Positions 14,263-53,124 of a stretch of 64,000 nt of DNA are shown piece after piece. Every line of letters begins with the position of its first letter. Position 1 is the stretch's first letter. The stretch comes from Porphyromonas bennonis DSM 23058 = JCM 16335 (lineage in GTDB: Bacteria; Bacteroidota; Bacteroidia; Bacteroidales; Porphyromonadaceae): the NCBI RefSeq assembly GCF_000375645.1, contig NZ_AQWR01000003.1, positions 1 through 64,000 of the forward strand, in the 5' to 3' direction. The position numbers and the translations under genes are program-made. A model generated the notes under the pieces. It made no database searches. It was not told the DNA's origin and was given only the letters and a program-made list of their open reading frames with translations.

Positions 14263-14322
14263 CTATTACCGATATTAGTGAAGTCTATTACCGGTATTAG
14301 TCGACACTAATATCGGTATTAG
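14263..14322. repeat. 22-bp-period palindrome array, locus 1 (3 units)
   Basis: Three 16-bp imperfect palindromes start at 14263, 14285 and 14307, exactly 22 bp apart: CTATTACCGATATTAG, CTATTACCGGTATTAG, CTAATATCGGTATTAG. The 6-nt spacers are TGAAGT and TCGACA. The array sits in the convergent gap between the lipoprotein and ATPase genes; 14154-14262 holds nothing recognisable. Confidence 0.9.
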
Positions 14323-17955: not shown

Positions 17956-17996
17956 AAAGGCGTCCGAGGGACTTCCATAGTCCCTCGGACGCCTTT
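17956..17996 (+). terminator. Terminator after the acyl-CoA synthetase gene
   Basis: A 16-bp stem AAAGGCGTCCGAGGGA / TCCCTCGGACGCCTTT with a 9-nt loop, 19 nt past the stop codon. The T run on the plus strand is short (three), while the flanking A run would serve the other strand. Confidence 0.8.
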
Positions 17997-18252: not shown

Positions 18253-19770
18253 ATGAATCGCTGTAAACCAAAAAAACTCCTGGTGCTACTGCCGATCCTC
18301 CTGCTCCTCCTACAGACAGGATGCACGATCGGTGACGAGCTGAGTGAGACGGCGAGTCTGACCCTCTCGGAGGTAGGGATAGTCTCACTCGATCCGGGTA
18401 AGGTGTCTCGCGAGATCGGCGTGACGACGGATGCCTCCGACTGGAGCTGCTATACCGCCAATAGCTGGATCTCGGTCACCAAGAAGGATGACCACACCCT
18501 CCTCATCAGTGCGGAGGCTAATCCCACCTCCGATGCGCGTCTGGGGTCCGTCGTCGTGACGGCATCCGGAGTGCGTCGCCAGCTCACCATCATGCAGGGT
18601 AAGGGCACGGAGGTGATCATAGCTCATGCCGGTAGTAGTGCCGGCTCGAGTGAGCTCTCGATCAGTCAGTGGGGCGAGACCCGCTCCATCGATGTGGAGA
18701 GCGGGACCGACCTCTGGACTGCCAAGAGTGACGATGAGTGGATCACCGTTACGCCCTATCCCGTCGCCAAGCGGATCGATGTCCGCGTGGCACCCAATCG
18801 CAATCGCGAGCCGCGCGAGGGCAAGATCATGATCACCCTGCAGGGTGAGAGCAGCGGGGGAGCTGAGATACGCGTGTCTCAGAGTGGGGTAGACTGGTTT
18901 ATACTCCCCTATATGAACTTCGAGAGTGCTACAAGGCCCGATATCCAGCTCTTCGAGGAGAAGAGGGGTGGGGCGATCGAGGACGAGAGTGAGCGCTTCT
19001 TCACCTTCTCCACCACGAGCAGCGCCTTCCCTCGTGTCGTATATACGATCTATGCCGGTGGTGCCTACCTGTACGCTCAGGTGGATGCCTCCTCGACGCA
19101 GCTCCTCCTCGGTGAAGCGCGGCTGGAGCTGATCAGCTTCCTCAAGGAGAATGGCTTCACCGAGCAGGTGGATGAGAATACCTACCGCCACAAGGATCAG
19201 CGCAATCTGACGGTGGAGATCAAGCCGTTCTTCAAGAATACGCCGCACCTGCTCTTCAGCTACAAGCCGGAGCAGCCCGTGGCGATGCCTACCTTTGACA
19301 CCCTGCCTCTGGGACTGACCACCTTTGGTATCACCAAGGAGGAGGTGAAGAAGTACGAGGACAGTGTAGGCGGTGAGGAGACCTACAATTATGAGGATGA
19401 GTACGAGTTTGTCACTCCTCCGGGTAAGTACGAGGCCGATGGGCGGCTCTATCTCTTCCACCAAGATAAGAAGAGCGGCATCTACCAGCTCGAGAAGACT
19501 CGCCAGTACTTCCTCGACACGGATCGAGCCTTCTGGAGTTACAAGGGGTACTTCACGCCGACCAACGAATTTATGGAGCTCTGCGAGAGAGAGGGCTTCC
19601 ACTTCGAGGAGTACAACATCCTCGAGCATGTCTACGTCTTTGTCTCCAAGGAGAAGGGGCTGACCTTAGGTGCTCAGTGTAAGAAGTTCTTCGGAGATCC
19701 CAAGCCGATCATCGTCCTGCAGATCAATCCTGGGACCAAGATGATTGCTCACCAAACCAACCGTAAGTAA
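18253..19770 (+). CDS. BACON-domain surface lipoprotein 1
   Basis: A 505-residue predicted lipoprotein; the signal peptide ends LLLQTG-C (Cys24). Two BACON-type beta domains follow (about residues 35-115 and 125-215), recognisable by WISVTKKDDHTLLISAEANP and RLGSVVVTASGVRRQLTIMQ-like blocks (shown by WISVTKKDD and RQLTIMQG). After a WFILPYMNFE junction comes a roughly 280-residue C-terminal region of unknown type that is also present in the next gene. BACON domains are usually carbohydrate- or mucin-associated spacers in Bacteroidetes surface proteins. It opens a four-gene operon (24-nt gap to the next gene) with a subtilisin-like protease and a PorV-like barrel. Confidence 0.85.
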   Translation: MNRCKPKKLLVLLPILLLLLQTGCTIGDELSETASLTLSEVGIVSLDPGKVSREIGVTTDASDWSCYTANSWISVTKKDDHTLLISAEANPTSDARLGSVVVTASGVRRQLTIMQGKGTEVIIAHAGSSAGSSELSISQWGETRSIDVESGTDLWTAKSDDEWITVTPYPVAKRIDVRVAPNRNREPREGKIMITLQGESSGGAEIRVSQSGVDWFILPYMNFESATRPDIQLFEEKRGGAIEDESERFFTFSTTSSAFPRVVYTIYAGGAYLYAQVDASSTQLLLGEARLELISFLKENGFTEQVDENTYRHKDQRNLTVEIKPFFKNTPHLLFSYKPEQPVAMPTFDTLPLGLTTFGITKEEVKKYEDSVGGEETYNYEDEYEFVTPPGKYEADGRLYLFHQDKKSGIYQLEKTRQYFLDTDRAFWSYKGYFTPTNEFMELCEREGFHFEEYNILEHVYVFVSKEKGLTLGAQCKKFFGDPKPIIVLQINPGTKMIAHQTNRK

Positions 19771-19794
19771 ACCACCACACGACATAATCAGATC

Positions 19795-21351
19795 ATGAAT
19801 AAATCACTATATATACTTGCATCGCTCCTCACGGCACTCCTCTGCTTCGGATGTACGCCTGAGAGCTTAGAGAAGGAGCCGACTATGCTCGAGCTCGACA
19901 AGCCGGAAGTACGCCTCACCAAGGACAAGGGCGAGATGGTCGTCAGCGTGCAGACCAATGAGGAGTCCGTCGTCGCCATCAGCAATAGAGACTGGATCAC
20001 TGCGGTACCTGAGGGTAAGTCCGTCAAGCTGGTCTATGATGAGAATAAGGTGATCGGTCAGCGTGATGCCGTTGTCCTCGTGCAGGCGGGAGACTTAGTC
20101 AAGGCTCTTAAGGTAACCCAGGAGGGCAACGCCCTCGATGTGACCACCGTCCCCGAGGCTATCGTACTGGAGCCGTGGGACAGCGAGGTCACCATCAGTG
20201 TCCGCGTCAATGGCGAGGGCTGGAGCTGCACCTCAGCCACCGACTGGATCCAGGTCACCTCCCTCCCGTGGAAGAAGGAGGTGATCCTCCGCGCAGAGTC
20301 TAATAAGAGTGGCGGTGAGCGTCAGAGTGAGCTTATCTTCCAGGTAGAGGGAGAGACCGGCACCGTAGCCGTACCGGTGAAGCAGAAGGAGTGGCCCCTC
20401 TTCCTCCTTCCCTACATCGACTTTGAGTACGGCACCATGAGCCTCATCTCCCGCTTCGAGATGGAGCGCAGGAGCATGATCAAGCAGACGCTCACCGGCT
20501 CTGTCACCTTTACGACCACCAGCCCGATGATGAGCCAGATAGCCTACTCCTTCTCCACCAAGGGTGTGATGACGGCTGCACAGGCTTACATCGCCGCCGA
20601 CTATACAACCACCGATGAGGATGGCGAGACGATGATCACAGAGGAGACCATGCATGTCATCGACTCCGCACTCCTCGCCGAGGGCTTCACGGAGAAGCAG
20701 GGCAAGCTGCGCTACTTCGATCCCTCTACCCGCGTCGTAGCCTCCATCAAGGATCACACCTACGACCCCAATATCGAGTACATCTACATCCCGAAGCAGC
20801 CGCAGGCTTACAAGACCTTCGACAAGTTCCCCTACATACCTGTAGCATTCGGTGCCGACTACAGCGAGGTGGAGAAGTTTGAGCAGGAGAATGGCGGTGT
20901 CTACTATCCCGATGCCGACCAGTATGACGATGCGAATGGTCTCTGCTACTTCGAGTACAAGGTGCCCGGCAGCAAGCAGATCAAGTCGCGCAACTACTAT
21001 CTCACATGGGATGCTAAGAAGCAGAAGGTCGGCATCCTCCTGGCTACCTTCCAGGAGTGGTCTGACATCAATCTGGTCTACTGGGAGTACAACGGCCGTC
21101 TCAATATCACTGAGGAGTTCCTTGCCCTCTGTGAGAAGGATGGATTCAAGTACAACGGCAAGACCTCTGACGGCAAGATGGACGTCTTTGTCAATGCCTC
21201 TAAGGGTGTCCAGATGAGGACCCAATTTGCACATTTCCAGGGCGAGGAGGATCCGTCGCTCGTCATCATGATGTTGCCCTACGAGGCCTCCAATACACAG
21301 ACGAGCGCTCTCGACCATAAGATGACTCAGATGAAGAAGCTATGGAAATGA
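19795..21351 (+). CDS. BACON-domain surface lipoprotein 2
   Basis: A 518-residue paralogue of the preceding protein. The lipobox is LLCFG-C near residue 20. Two BACON-like domains follow (about residues 30-115 and 120-205; NRDWITAVPEGKSVKLVYDE, ATDWIQVTSLPWKKEVIL). The junction WPLFLLPYIDFEYGT mirrors WFILPYMNFES in gene 1. The C-terminal region shares landmarks such as LLAEGFTEKQGKLRYFD, versus FLKENGFTEQVDENTYR, and a final LCEKDGFKY versus LCEREGFHF. The duplication is old, since identity is limited. The stop codon overlaps the start of the protease gene, so translation is probably coupled. Function unknown; the context suggests an accessory or inhibitor role for the protease. Confidence 0.83.
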   Translation: MNKSLYILASLLTALLCFGCTPESLEKEPTMLELDKPEVRLTKDKGEMVVSVQTNEESVVAISNRDWITAVPEGKSVKLVYDENKVIGQRDAVVLVQAGDLVKALKVTQEGNALDVTTVPEAIVLEPWDSEVTISVRVNGEGWSCTSATDWIQVTSLPWKKEVILRAESNKSGGERQSELIFQVEGETGTVAVPVKQKEWPLFLLPYIDFEYGTMSLISRFEMERRSMIKQTLTGSVTFTTTSPMMSQIAYSFSTKGVMTAAQAYIAADYTTTDEDGETMITEETMHVIDSALLAEGFTEKQGKLRYFDPSTRVVASIKDHTYDPNIEYIYIPKQPQAYKTFDKFPYIPVAFGADYSEVEKFEQENGGVYYPDADQYDDANGLCYFEYKVPGSKQIKSRNYYLTWDAKKQKVGILLATFQEWSDINLVYWEYNGRLNITEEFLALCEKDGFKYNGKTSDGKMDVFVNASKGVQMRTQFAHFQGEEDPSLVIMMLPYEASNTQTSALDHKMTQMKKLWK

Positions 21352-24092
21352 GACAGATGTCAAGTATGGGGCTCTTAGCCCTCTTCCTTACCCTTGGACT
21401 CGGTCTTGCCTCCTGCTCCGACAGGAGGGCACTCGACCCCGAGGAGCCTGAGCAGTCTGCCGAGATCGATCCGGCAGGTCAGGGGGCGACCGTCCCCGGT
21501 CTCGTCCGCGTCCGACTGACGCCCGACCTGGCCGATAAGATCGGTACCCGTGCCCTCAGCGCTGATGATCCTGCGCTACGGAGCTCCGATGCGCCCATGA
21601 GCGATCTCCTCCGGAGTATCGGTGCACGCGAGGTGCGCCCGGTCTTCATCATGGAGCCTGCCTATGAGAAGCGTATGCGCCGGGCGGGGCTACACCTCTG
21701 GTACGACATTATCCTCGATGAGAGTGCCGGTGAGAGCACCACACTCCGCTCTGCTTCTCAGGTCGCTGATCTCCCCGGAGTGGATCTGGTGGAGCAGGTG
21801 CCTCTCTACCGGACGATGGATGAGCCGGTATTCTTCCCTCTGAGAGCCTACGGCTTTGACTCCGAGCGTGACGAGAAGGATGTGATGCCCTTCAACGACC
21901 CCTACCTCCCCAAGCAGTGGCACTACCACAATACAGGCTCGGGACTCAAGTCGCTCAAGGGCGCTGATCTCAACCTCTTCGAAGCGTGGAAGCAGGAGAC
22001 CGGAGACCCTTCCGTCATCGTGGCTGTCATCGATGGTGGTGTCTACTATGAGCATGAGGACCTGGCTCAGAATATCTGGGTCAATCCGAGTCCCGGTCAG
22101 GGCGAGTACAAGGACGATATCCACGGATACAACTTTGCCGATGAGGATGCCAATATCGCTTATGACGCCCACGGTACTCACGTGGCGGGCGTGATCGCTG
22201 CGGTGAATAACAACGGTGTCGGCGTCTCCGGTGTCGCAGGTGGTAACGGTAGCCCCGACACGGGTGTGCGGATCATGGTCTGCGATGCCTTTGGGCGAAA
22301 GAATGGTCAGGCCTTTGAGCGCGCCTTTGTCTACGCTGCCAATCACGGTGCCGTCATTGCGCAGAATTCCTGGGGTGGATCCAAGTTTATGTCCCCCTCG
22401 CTCAAGGCTGCGATCGACTACTTCATCGACTGTGCCGGCTGCGATGCCGATGGCAATCAGCTGCCCGACTCCCCGATGAAGGGTGGGGTGGTACTCTTTG
22501 CTGCCGGTAATGAGTCCTCGGATGATATGTCCTACCCGGCTGCCTACGGTCCGGTGGTGACCATCTCTGCGATGGCTCCCGACTGGAAGAAGGCGTACTA
22601 CACCAATCGTGGCGAGTGGATCAAGCTGATGTGCCCCGGTGGTGACCTTCACTATCCCGGTGGTCAGATCTACAGCACCTCCGTACAGAAGAAGGTGGAC
22701 GACGAGGGAACAATCCTCGCTGCTCAGAGTTACTACGAATTTATGCAGGGGACCTCGATGGCCTGTCCTCACGCCAGTGGCGTGACCGGACTGATCGTCT
22801 CCAAGTATGGCGGTCCCGGCTTCACGAATGCCGACTGTAAGAGTCGCCTCCTCTCTGCACTCCGCCCGGCGGACATCGACGAGTACAATCCCGGATTTGA
22901 GGGCATCCTCGGTGCCGGGTACCTCGATGCTGCTCGTGCGCTCGACAGTGATACCTCTAAGGCTCCTGAGCAGGTCAAGGACGTAGCGGCAGAGCCGGGC
23001 TACACCGACCTGACCATTACCTTCCCTGCCGTGGCAGACCCGGATGACCGTACCGCAAGCTACTACGTCATCTACTACAGCGATAAGGAGCCTCTCACCG
23101 CCTCTACCTACAAGAGTGCGAAGTCTACCAAGGTCTTCGGACTGAAGTATAATGTGGGCGAAAAGGTCTCCTATACCAGCCGCAACCTCTCGATCAACCA
23201 GGGCTACCACTATGCCATAGTGGCGGTAGACCGCTGGGGCAATGAGGCAGCACCCACCTTCTTCTCCTCCTCTACGCTCGACAATGCCGCTCCTGTGGTA
23301 ACCGTAGAGGGACCTAAGGAGATCCGCCTCGCCGGCAGTGAGACCGCTCAGCTGCTCCTCAGGGTAGCCGACCCGGAGGGACACACCTGGTCCTACACCA
23401 TGAAGGGCGACCTCCTCGGCATCACTGCCACGAGAGAGGAGGAGACGATCCTCGTCGATCTCTCGGCAAGAGGTTCCGTCGGTAAGCACGACTTCTCAGT
23501 AGTCGTCAGGGATCAGTATGGCGCTGAGACGGAGGTGAAGATCTCCTACGAGGTCTACCTCAACTCCGCCCCCGTACTCTCCAAGCCGATCACACTCACC
23601 TATCTCCCGATAGGCCGTGAGCAGACCATCTCTCTCGGAGACTACATCAGCGATCCCGATGGGCATAAGCTGACCTACTCGGTCACCTCCTCAGCCGATC
23701 AGGTCGTCTCTGCCAAGCTACACGATGGCGTCCTCTCCCTCAAGGGAGTCTCCAAGGGTAGCTCCACGGTCCAGATCCATGCGGTCGATGAGCTGGGCGC
23801 TGAGCTCTATGTCAGTCTCAGCATCCGGGCAGTGGCTGACGATATAGTCTACCATGTCTTCCCGATCCCGACCTACGGTGACCTGAGTGTCGTCCTCTCG
23901 GGGAAGATCAGCACCGCCACCATCTCCGTCGTCGCCGGCAATGGGTCGGTAGTGCATAAGGAGGAGGTCAGCGTCGGGAGTGAGGGAAGTACCCACAAGA
24001 TGGATCTCTCCAAGCTCGCCGGCGGCAAGTATCTGCTCCGGGTGGAGGGTAATAATGGTCTGAAGTATACCCGATACTTCGTGAAGTACTAA
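21348..24092 (+). CDS. Subtilisin-like (S8) protease with T9SS sorting domain
   Basis: A 914-residue exported serine protease. Numbered from the ATG at 21348 (overlapping the previous stop as ATGA; 21342 is the alternative), the catalytic residues are Asp229 (VIDGGV), His275 (HGTHVAG), Asn340 (QNSWGG) and Ser470 (GTSMACPHASG), so the enzyme looks complete. A propeptide occupies about residues 40-190. Fibronectin-III-like and cadherin-like beta modules lie between about 540 and 830. The last 75 residues (VFPIPTYGDLSV ... GGKYLLRVEG ... YTRYFVKY) have the form of a type A T9SS C-terminal sorting domain. Oddly, the signal peptide ends in a lipobox-like LASC, unusual for a T9SS substrate. A PorV-like gene follows after a short gap. 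Confidence 0.9.
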   Translation: MRQMSSMGLLALFLTLGLGLASCSDRRALDPEEPEQSAEIDPAGQGATVPGLVRVRLTPDLADKIGTRALSADDPALRSSDAPMSDLLRSIGAREVRPVFIMEPAYEKRMRRAGLHLWYDIILDESAGESTTLRSASQVADLPGVDLVEQVPLYRTMDEPVFFPLRAYGFDSERDEKDVMPFNDPYLPKQWHYHNTGSGLKSLKGADLNLFEAWKQETGDPSVIVAVIDGGVYYEHEDLAQNIWVNPSPGQGEYKDDIHGYNFADEDANIAYDAHGTHVAGVIAAVNNNGVGVSGVAGGNGSPDTGVRIMVCDAFGRKNGQAFERAFVYAANHGAVIAQNSWGGSKFMSPSLKAAIDYFIDCAGCDADGNQLPDSPMKGGVVLFAAGNESSDDMSYPAAYGPVVTISAMAPDWKKAYYTNRGEWIKLMCPGGDLHYPGGQIYSTSVQKKVDDEGTILAAQSYYEFMQGTSMACPHASGVTGLIVSKYGGPGFTNADCKSRLLSALRPADIDEYNPGFEGILGAGYLDAARALDSDTSKAPEQVKDVAAEPGYTDLTITFPAVADPDDRTASYYVIYYSDKEPLTASTYKSAKSTKVFGLKYNVGEKVSYTSRNLSINQGYHYAIVAVDRWGNEAAPTFFSSSTLDNAAPVVTVEGPKEIRLAGSETAQLLLRVADPEGHTWSYTMKGDLLGITATREEETILVDLSARGSVGKHDFSVVVRDQYGAETEVKISYEVYLNSAPVLSKPITLTYLPIGREQTISLGDYISDPDGHKLTYSVTSSADQVVSAKLHDGVLSLKGVSKGSSTVQIHAVDELGAELYVSLSIRAVADDIVYHVFPIPTYGDLSVVLSGKISTATISVVAGNGSVVHKEEVSVGSEGSTHKMDLSKLAGGKYLLRVEGNNGLKYTRYFVKY

Positions 24093-24115
24093 TCGACTCA
24101 TACCCTATGTATATC

Positions 24116-25069
24116 ATGAAACACATATACGCCATTGCCCTCCTCCTCGCCGGTATCACCCTGACCGCCTCCGCTCAGGAGGACTCCGGGACGCTACCCG
24201 TCCTCGCTCAGAATCCTGATGCCCTCTCTGCATCCATGGGTCAGACCGGGGGCAGCACCCTCTCCGGAGGTCACTACATCTACTCAGCCCCGGGGGCTGT
24301 ATTTGACCGGAGCGAGCGCTTCTCACTCTCCTACACCGGCATCATCGGTACGGGACACGACTCGATGCGCTCGGGGAGTGGATTTTACAACGCCGTCACT
24401 GGGAGCTGGAGATTTCGCGACAAGCATGCCCTGATCGCAGGCTTCCGCTACCTCGGCGGGGGAAGTGTCCTCACGTCGACCGAGAGCGGGGATGGCCGCG
24501 AGATACACCCGATGGACATCACGGCCGACCTTGGTTACGCCCTCCGGATCAATAATCACTGGAGAGCCTACGTGGTAGGACACTTCGTCGAGTCCTACAT
24601 CGGCAAGATCGCACTCACCGGCGGCGGATCTCTCGGTACCACTTACGGCAGTCGGCTCTCCTCGGTTCCCCTCAGCTATACCCTCGGAGCCTCACTCCGC
24701 AATCTCGGTGGAGCGGTCCTCTACGGAAAGAAGAGTGGCAAGTACACCATGCCCGGCTCCGTCACTCTCGCCGGTGACCTGCGCTACGGACTCACCTCGG
24801 AGTGGACGCTGATCGCTGCGGCGACCGGCGACTACCTCGTCCAGCCCGCCTCGGCAGGGCAGTATGCCGTTGGTCTTGGACTGGGTGCAGCATTCCTGGA
24901 TGTGATGAGCTTCCAGCTCGGCGGCACGATCCTGCCCGGTCAGTACCACCTCACCGGAGGTATCTGCTATCAGCCGATACGCCATGCCTCTGTCGGCCTC
25001 GCCTGGAGGGTCGCCCCACAGCTGAGGGAGGCCAATCACATTGCCCTCTCTGTAGGCTGTCACTTCTGA
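24116..25069 (+). CDS. PorV/PorQ-like outer-membrane barrel
   Basis: A 317-residue predicted beta-barrel with signal peptide MKHIYAIALLLAGITLTASA; an alternative ATG lies 9 nt upstream. The mature start PVLAQNPDALSASMGQTGGS resembles the PFL..NPDAR..GMG.AG..T signature of the T9SS shuttle PorV and its relatives PorQ/UPF0164. The rest is regularly amphipathic and ends in an aromatic residue (SVGCHF). At about 317 residues it is shorter than classical PorV (near 390). Being the last gene of the operon directly behind a T9SS-tagged protease, it may be a dedicated shuttle or anchor for that protease. It could instead be a generic FadL-like barrel. Functional assignment is inferred from the signature and context. 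Confidence 0.68.
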   Translation: MKHIYAIALLLAGITLTASAQEDSGTLPVLAQNPDALSASMGQTGGSTLSGGHYIYSAPGAVFDRSERFSLSYTGIIGTGHDSMRSGSGFYNAVTGSWRFRDKHALIAGFRYLGGGSVLTSTESGDGREIHPMDITADLGYALRINNHWRAYVVGHFVESYIGKIALTGGGSLGTTYGSRLSSVPLSYTLGASLRNLGGAVLYGKKSGKYTMPGSVTLAGDLRYGLTSEWTLIAAATGDYLVQPASAGQYAVGLGLGAAFLDVMSFQLGGTILPGQYHLTGGICYQPIRHASVGLAWRVAPQLREANHIALSVGCHF

Positions 25070-25136: not shown

Positions 25137-25218
25137 CTAATAGCGGTATTAGTTTCGACTAATACCGCTATTAGTTTACGCTATTATCGGTATTAGAACT
25201 CTCTATTACCGGTATTAG
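25137..25218. repeat. 22-bp-period palindrome array, locus 2 (4 units)
   Basis: Four 16-bp units start at 25137, 25159, 25181 and 25203, exactly 22 bp apart: CTAATAGCGGTATTAG, CTAATACCGCTATTAG, CTATTATCGGTATTAG, CTATTACCGGTATTAG. Spacers are TTTCGA, TTTACG and AACTCT. The array sits between the end of the PorV-like gene and the bidirectional terminator. Confidence 0.92.
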
Positions 25219-25252: not shown

Positions 25253-25306
25253 AAAAAAAAAGAGGTCCCCCGCAGACAGATCGTCTGCGGGGGACCTCTT
25301 TTTTTG
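25253..25306. terminator. Bidirectional terminator between the PorV-like and AraC genes
   Basis: A perfect 16-bp stem GAGGTCCCCCGCAGAC / GTCTGCGGGGGACCTC with a 5-nt loop, flanked by nine A on the left and a run of T on the right, so it can stop transcription from both converging genes. Confidence 0.95.
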
Positions 25307-37934: not shown

Positions 37935-37994
37935 CTAATACTGGTATTAGTGAAGTCTATTACCGGTATTACTCATCACTAATATCGGTATTAG
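37935..37994. repeat. 22-bp-period palindrome array, locus 3 (3 units)
   Basis: Units start at 37935, 37957 and 37979: CTAATACTGGTATTAG, CTATTACCGGTATTAC, CTAATATCGGTATTAG, with spacers TGAAGT (also used at locus 1) and TCATCA. This copy sits in the divergent gap between the TetR gene and an outer-membrane protein gene. Confidence 0.9.
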
Positions 37995-53064: not shown

Positions 53065-53124
53065 CTAATACCGGTAATAGTTCCGACTATTACCGGTATT
53101 AGTTTTGCCTATTACCGACTATAG
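53065..53124. repeat. 22-bp-period palindrome array, locus 4 (3 units)
   Basis: Units start at 53065, 53087 and 53109: CTAATACCGGTAATAG, CTATTACCGGTATTAG, and a decayed CTATTACCGACTATAG, with spacers TTCCGA and TTTTGC. A single loose unit (CTAATACCGGGTTTTAG) is at 53566-53582. The array opens an 0.8-kb repeat-rich non-coding stretch after smpB. Confidence 0.9.

Follow-up and report, generated by a model that had tools for sequence, protein, structure and literature searches.

A Multiplied Cassette of BACON Lipoproteins, a CTD-Bearing Subtilase and a PorV-Family Barrel in Porphyromonadaceae: A Candidate Surface Protease Complex

Organization of the Operon

The window, that is, the whole stretch of 64,000 nucleotides of Porphyromonas bennonis DNA that was analyzed, contains four tightly spaced genes on its forward strand, as the first-pass annotation had proposed. 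The first (18253–19770) encodes a BACON lipoprotein of 505 amino acids with its lipobox cysteine at Cys24, the second (19795–21351) another BACON lipoprotein of 518 amino acids, the third (21342–24092) an S8 subtilase of 916 amino acids, and the last (24107–25069) an outer-membrane barrel of the PorV/PorQ family, 320 amino acids long and provided with a secretory leader. The two lipoproteins were assigned from open reading frames and profile matches, the subtilase also from an alignment of homologues, and the barrel from profiles, a fold match and a tree. The intergenic distances given earlier (24, −4 and 23 nt) hold with the later in-frame ATG starts at 21348 and 24116, whereas the first ATGs give 24, −10 and 14 nt. 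The repeat search revealed two perfect, terminator-like inverted repeats, neither assigned to a strand: one of 18 nt (17956–17996) separates the operon from an upstream acyl-CoA ligase gene, and one of 23 nt with A/T runs on both sides (25255–25305) lies before a convergent AraC-family gene. As these repeats bracket the four genes, the latter probably form one transcription unit. In the comparison with the nearest relative, dN/dS is 0.08–0.16 across all four genes.

As a separate observation, 16-nt palindromes, CTAATACCGSTATTAG, occur in clusters of two to four with a spacing of exactly 22 nt at four sites of the window (14263–14322, 25137–25218, 37935–37994 and 53065–53102), with 24 matches observed against 0.02 expected.

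The two BACON lipoproteins, the S8 protease and its type A C-terminal domain (CTD), all named in the first-pass annotation, are borne out by profile matches. The BACON domain (PF13004) is found in both lipoproteins with E values of 2.8e-17 and 1.5e-8; the proteins are paralogous (approximately 26% identity), and both combine two BACON domains with a C-terminal half made of two related units. In lipoprotein 1 this half consists of an unknown alpha/beta unit present twice (probability of duplication 91%, against no more than 0.3% in column-shuffled controls), for which no known family was matched and no confident fold was obtained. The structure prediction for the lipoprotein (mean pLDDT 60.8), in which a BLIP/SmpA-like inhibitor fold was considered, gave only Ig-tandem matches, which come from the BACON part.

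The protease consists of a Peptidase_S8_N prodomain (residues 53–199, 21498–21938, PF16361, 2e-29), a subtilase catalytic domain (residues 224–507, 22011–22862, PF00082, 3e-38) and a T9SS type A-like CTD (residues 839–911, 23856–24074). Asp231, His277, Asn390 and Ser472 do not vary across 25 homologues, in agreement with the intact set described earlier, and the catalytic residues are kept in every protease examined; with the triad and the oxyanion Asn, the protease would qualify, at the level of its sequence, as an active S8 subtilase. The CTD scores 27.5 bits against Por_Secre_tail PF18962 (cut-off 27), while TIGR04183 (cut-off 23) gives 26.0 bits in the genome scan and 19.8 in the protein scan. 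Lys915, just after the CTD, is likewise invariant in the 25 family homologues, and the combination of a CTD above cut-off with a near-terminal lysine places the protein among type A CTD proteins. Furthermore, the leader carries a lipobox (LASC, Cys25) that is invariant in the same 25 homologues and was absent from the first-pass annotation; it stands in place of the signal-peptidase-I-type leader of KLIKK proteases and of the ordinary CTD protein of the host. The window protease is consequently a predicted lipoprotein, with lipidation and surface export predicted from the motif. After the cysteine it reads C-SDRRALD, with one acidic residue at +3 and the second only at +8, which is to be read as a motif only.

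The barrel reaches 93.9 bits against the PorV/PorQ family model NF033709 (cut-off 90), and stays below both equivalogs, with 46 bits against NF033710 for PorV (250 needed) and 25 bits against NF033711 for PorQ (220 needed). The model of the PorV-family paralogue PorV2 in the NCBI library (NF052325) gives no match to the window barrel, and a barrel from a SprA-less genome (L177) reaches 25 bits against its cut-off of 325. The predicted structure (pLDDT 78, pTM 0.78) finds PorV as its best fold matches (8gl6_F and 6h3i_F), followed by FadL and TodX, and the profile search separates PorV (1.7e-36) from FadL-like channels (0.02). The PorV/PorQ-like assignment of the first-pass annotation is thus upheld by profile and fold, and a match to an unrelated family did not occur. 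In the tree, canonical PorV forms one clade (support 1.0) outside of which the cassette barrels fall, with weakly supported deep branching among the latter. Judged by its scores and its place in the tree, the window barrel is neither canonical PorV nor PorQ and appears as a separate lineage.

The Cassette in the Genus and the Family

The core T9SS and a canonical porV were found elsewhere in the genome, as the earlier annotation had asked to be confirmed, with SprA on contig C1 and PorV on contig C37 (249.4 bits). Near SprA lies an ordinary CTD protein, trypsin-like and with a signal-peptidase-I-type leader (L166:16071-18293). The genome also holds a second cassette (L158, G000:C36:14275-16782) with two lipoprotein genes and a protease; the latter stops at two TAGs after the Ig domains, and neither a CTD nor a barrel is found before the contig end, so that the window cassette is the only intact one detected in this genome. 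Each of the 12 genus genomes searched encodes both SprA and PorV.

In the genus and its sister genus, 35 further loci around PorV-family genes repeat the order of protease and barrel. Almost all of these also include BACON lipoproteins, one to three in number, which as a rule lie upstream but at a few loci follow the barrel. Conservation of the gene order across Porphyromonadaceae, on which the earlier interpretation depended, is therefore found together with multiplication; the opposite outcome, genes not kept together, was not observed. Copy number differs between genus genomes: none was detected in G004 and G006, and the maximum is the seven CTD proteases of G011, six of them examined as whole loci. 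One member of the genus is Porphyromonas levii DSM 23370 (L044). Within the 12 genus genomes, a PorV-family gene comes just after 26 of the 30 CTD open reading frames that reach 890 aa or more, compared with 0 of 9 shorter ones (<890 aa); at least one of the four unpaired long frames (L164) does have a barrel, which scores below the listing. The leftover PorV-family genes are the canonical PorV, one per genome, and one gene on G002:C59 that follows the protease in L026. Across 30 cassettes, the distances correlate between lipoprotein and protease (r 0.90), lipoprotein and barrel (0.79) and protease and barrel (0.83), and shuffling partners within genomes gives 0.001 for both pairings that involve the barrel. 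The correlated distances, and the loss of the link to the barrel in these shuffles, indicate that the cassette genes move and diverge as a unit. The window operon is one copy of a cassette multiplied in Porphyromonadaceae.

The features that mark the window protease recur in a set of 57 proteases. A lipobox is present in 52 of them and a lysine among the last four residues in all 57; at positions +2 to +7 after the lipobox cysteine, at least one acidic residue occurs in 51 and at least two in 32, again as a motif only.

Co-evolution of barrel and CTD was considered as evidence of contact. The partial correlation given the catalytic domain (0.51–0.53) seemed specific; however, in a sliding control, segments beyond the catalytic domain that also evolve fast gave 0.44–0.65, and this line of evidence was dropped.

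At two loci, a small separate open reading frame downstream of the barrel matches the protease profile (L030:7485-7991 and L031:7651-8235). In L030 it corresponds to nothing but the Peptidase_S8_N prodomain, a candidate free inhibitor or chaperone.

Protease–Barrel Pairs in Genomes without Detected SprA

Scanning species genomes with the protease profile brought up more loci in Bacteroidales genomes, of which many are metagenome-assembled; at these loci the barrel gene again directly follows the protease. In 23 Bacteroidales genomes with such a protease-CTD/barrel pair, SprA was undetected by profile search: 15 of the 17 pair-bearing genomes first tested, then G156 and G175, and finally G381, G395, G360, G363, G420 and G397. 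G156 and G175 are 99% complete, and the main contigs of G381 and G395 (5.26 and 4.84 Mb) amount to approximately whole genomes; as the latter two are essentially single contigs, missing sequence is an unlikely cause of the absence. The absence of SprA is defined by one profile, backed by GldM TIGR03517, which misses the host genome's own PorM and is therefore a weak second marker of T9SS. Two of the first 15 genomes (L064, L089) have the genes of the pair broken up across several reading frames.

Of 12 CTDs tested from SprA-less proteases, 11 score 23.4–37.1 bits, where the cut-off is 23. The 17 SprA-less genomes picked for carrying the pair have between one and three CTD proteins each, 24 in total, of which 18 are encoded directly upstream of a barrel; the SprA-bearing G371 and G386 have 23 and 11 CTD proteins for comparison. 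For G360 and G395, both SprA-less, dN/dS is 0.13 for the protease and 0.17 for the barrel over small distances, which points to purifying selection on both genes where it is measurable. Many SprA-less pairs lack the lipoproteins or have diverged versions of them. G420 and G397 retain the full lipoprotein–protease–barrel cassette, which nests inside the family clade of the tree.

Two other arrangements were noted in genomes without SprA. In other SprA-less Bacteroidales, a different PorV-family barrel directly follows an AmiA-like amidase (PF07313), sometimes esterase-fused (L178, L181, L184, L186, L189, L190, L191, L193 and L194); this amidase is possibly a second type of cargo for barrels outside T9SS. 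At L153–L157 (G246, G163, G311), S8 proteases belonging to the same family stand in tandem, two to about nine per array, with no barrel detected.

Proposed Mechanism and Alternative Readings

Taken together, these findings lead us to favor, with some reserve, a dedicated surface protease complex, in which the barrel would anchor the lipidated protease by its CTD and SprA would not be needed. The subtilase and both BACON proteins would be exported by Sec, lipidated and transported to the outer membrane, and the surface-lipoprotein route of Bacteroidota would then display them on the cell surface. The PorV-like barrel would reside in the outer membrane, where its extracellular loops would permanently retain the protease through its Ig-like CTD, an arrangement modelled on PorV with PorU and PorQ with PorZ. 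With the loops holding it, the CTD would serve as a docking domain for its own barrel, without requiring the SprA translocon. The co-inherited lipoproteins would be surface partners of the complex, most likely shielding the cell from the protease or presenting its substrate. The conserved lipidation signals, the retained terminal lysine and the survival of the pair without SprA fit such a permanent complex; we infer surface display, contact between CTD and barrel and, for the window organism, independence of the translocon.

Several observations weigh against this anchor model. Since the host genome encodes at least one ordinary CTD protein together with SprA and canonical PorV, transport of the window protease by T9SS is still conceivable; the evidence for lipidation and surface export comes from sequence motifs, and the barrel correlates equally well with other fast-evolving segments of the protease. 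Moreover, the CTD in Flavobacterium johnsoniae contacts largely SprA as well as PorV (PMC10994853), and PorV alone may consequently bind weakly. A dedicated T9SS shuttle, in which the protease would pass through SprA, be extracted by its cognate barrel in place of the shared PorV and then be kept on the surface, would make use of a translocon found in this genome and in all 12 genus genomes searched. It would also agree with the recognizable type A nature of the CTD, with PorV as the closest solved relative of the barrel, and with the operonic substrate–shuttle pairs established for type B CTDs and PorP/SprF (PMC12618676). Such a shuttle is nevertheless rather unlikely, as the pair is kept without SprA in 23 genomes and the proteases are predicted lipoproteins, as opposed to ordinary signal-peptidase-I cargo such as the CTD protein of L166. 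Of the dedicated shuttle or anchor suggested in the first-pass annotation, the cognate barrel for a CTD protease is thus well supported, whereas the T9SS shuttle is weakened, and the anchor is the likelier of the two.

The barrel might instead work as an uptake channel of the FadL type, taking in peptides or hydrophobic products freed by the protease, with the CTD as a leftover or a structural Ig domain. Surface-lipoprotein/barrel uptake pairs such as SusCD, RagAB and BtuBG are common in Bacteroidota, and FadL and TodX are the fold matches next after PorV. This explanation is improbable, since the CTD and the terminal lysine are kept in every pair examined, the CTDs of SprA-less genomes are mostly those adjoining a barrel, and the profile match to PorV lies far above that to FadL-like channels.

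With regard to the lipoproteins, an inhibitor is a plausible candidate role, beside substrate and adhesin. Cognate inhibitors that shield the producer, as potempins do for KLIKK proteases, would be compatible with the anchor model, and we put this forward tentatively, with less confidence than the anchor itself. A lipoprotein gene directly precedes the protease both here and in the potempin/KLIKK loci (PMC4404884, PMC7296668), and the co-inheritance of lipoprotein and protease is strong. However, the cassette lipoproteins are mostly 480–610 aa long and contain BACON domains, compared with potempin open reading frames of 360–550 bp, and the C-terminal half has no confident predicted fold; their loss or divergence in many SprA-less pairs also speaks against inhibition. 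The window locus itself falls outside the KLIKK/potempin group, since its lipoproteins measure 505 and 518 aa and the C-terminus of its protease is YTRYFVKY rather than KLIKK.

Relation to Known Systems and Biological Meaning

The closest parallels are PorU–PorV and PorZ–PorQ of the Porphyromonas gingivalis attachment complex, in which a CTD-bearing surface protein is kept on a barrel of the PorV/PorQ family through its retained CTD (PMC10202324). A near-C-terminal lysine of the CTD is contacted by PorV in all solved F. johnsoniae complexes (PMC10994853). PorU and PorZ are, however, part of T9SS, whereas the window system comprises a predicted lipoprotein subtilase and a separate barrel lineage, with pairs kept without SprA. 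Type B CTDs with PorP/SprF in F. johnsoniae resemble it as cognate pairs with the barrel gene directly downstream and several pairs per genome, but the window system combines a PorV-family barrel with a type A CTD; a single common PorV is reported to serve type A substrates, cognate CTD–shuttle pairs being known for type B (PMC12618676). The KLIKK/potempin loci of Tannerella forsythia share a CTD-bearing protease preceded by a lipoprotein gene and differ in their small potempins, the classical signal peptides of the proteases and the absence of a described barrel partner in the KLIKK literature searched. In BamG–BamH, the extracellular loops of a FadL/PorV-type barrel hold a surface lipoprotein independently of T9SS (PMC12578637); this pair belongs to the BAM machine, and a protease and CTD are not described there. 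A study of vaginal Porphyromonas predicted an Ig-containing serine protease, Poras_1747, as both Sec/SPII and type IX (PMC8861167). No description of type A/PorV-family cognate cassettes or of T9SS-free CTD–barrel pairs was found in the open-licence literature.

More broadly, PorV-type barrels and type A CTDs may constitute a T9SS-free surface-display module across Bacteroidales, including Bacteroides, in which the CTD docks a lipidated protease and which was multiplied to up to seven cassettes per genome in T9SS-bearing Porphyromonadaceae; we regard the case for this generalization as evenly balanced. A Por_Secre_tail match is routinely taken to mean secretion by T9SS, and intact CTD-protease/barrel pairs without detectable SprA suggest that this equation can be wrong. 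Similarly, the cognate pairs argue against one PorV common to all type A CTDs. The SprA-less pairs offer a natural system in which recognition of a CTD by a PorV-type barrel can be considered apart from the translocon. If the proposed complex is correct, it would add a class of surface lipoprotein–barrel protease complexes to gut and mucosal Bacteroidales.
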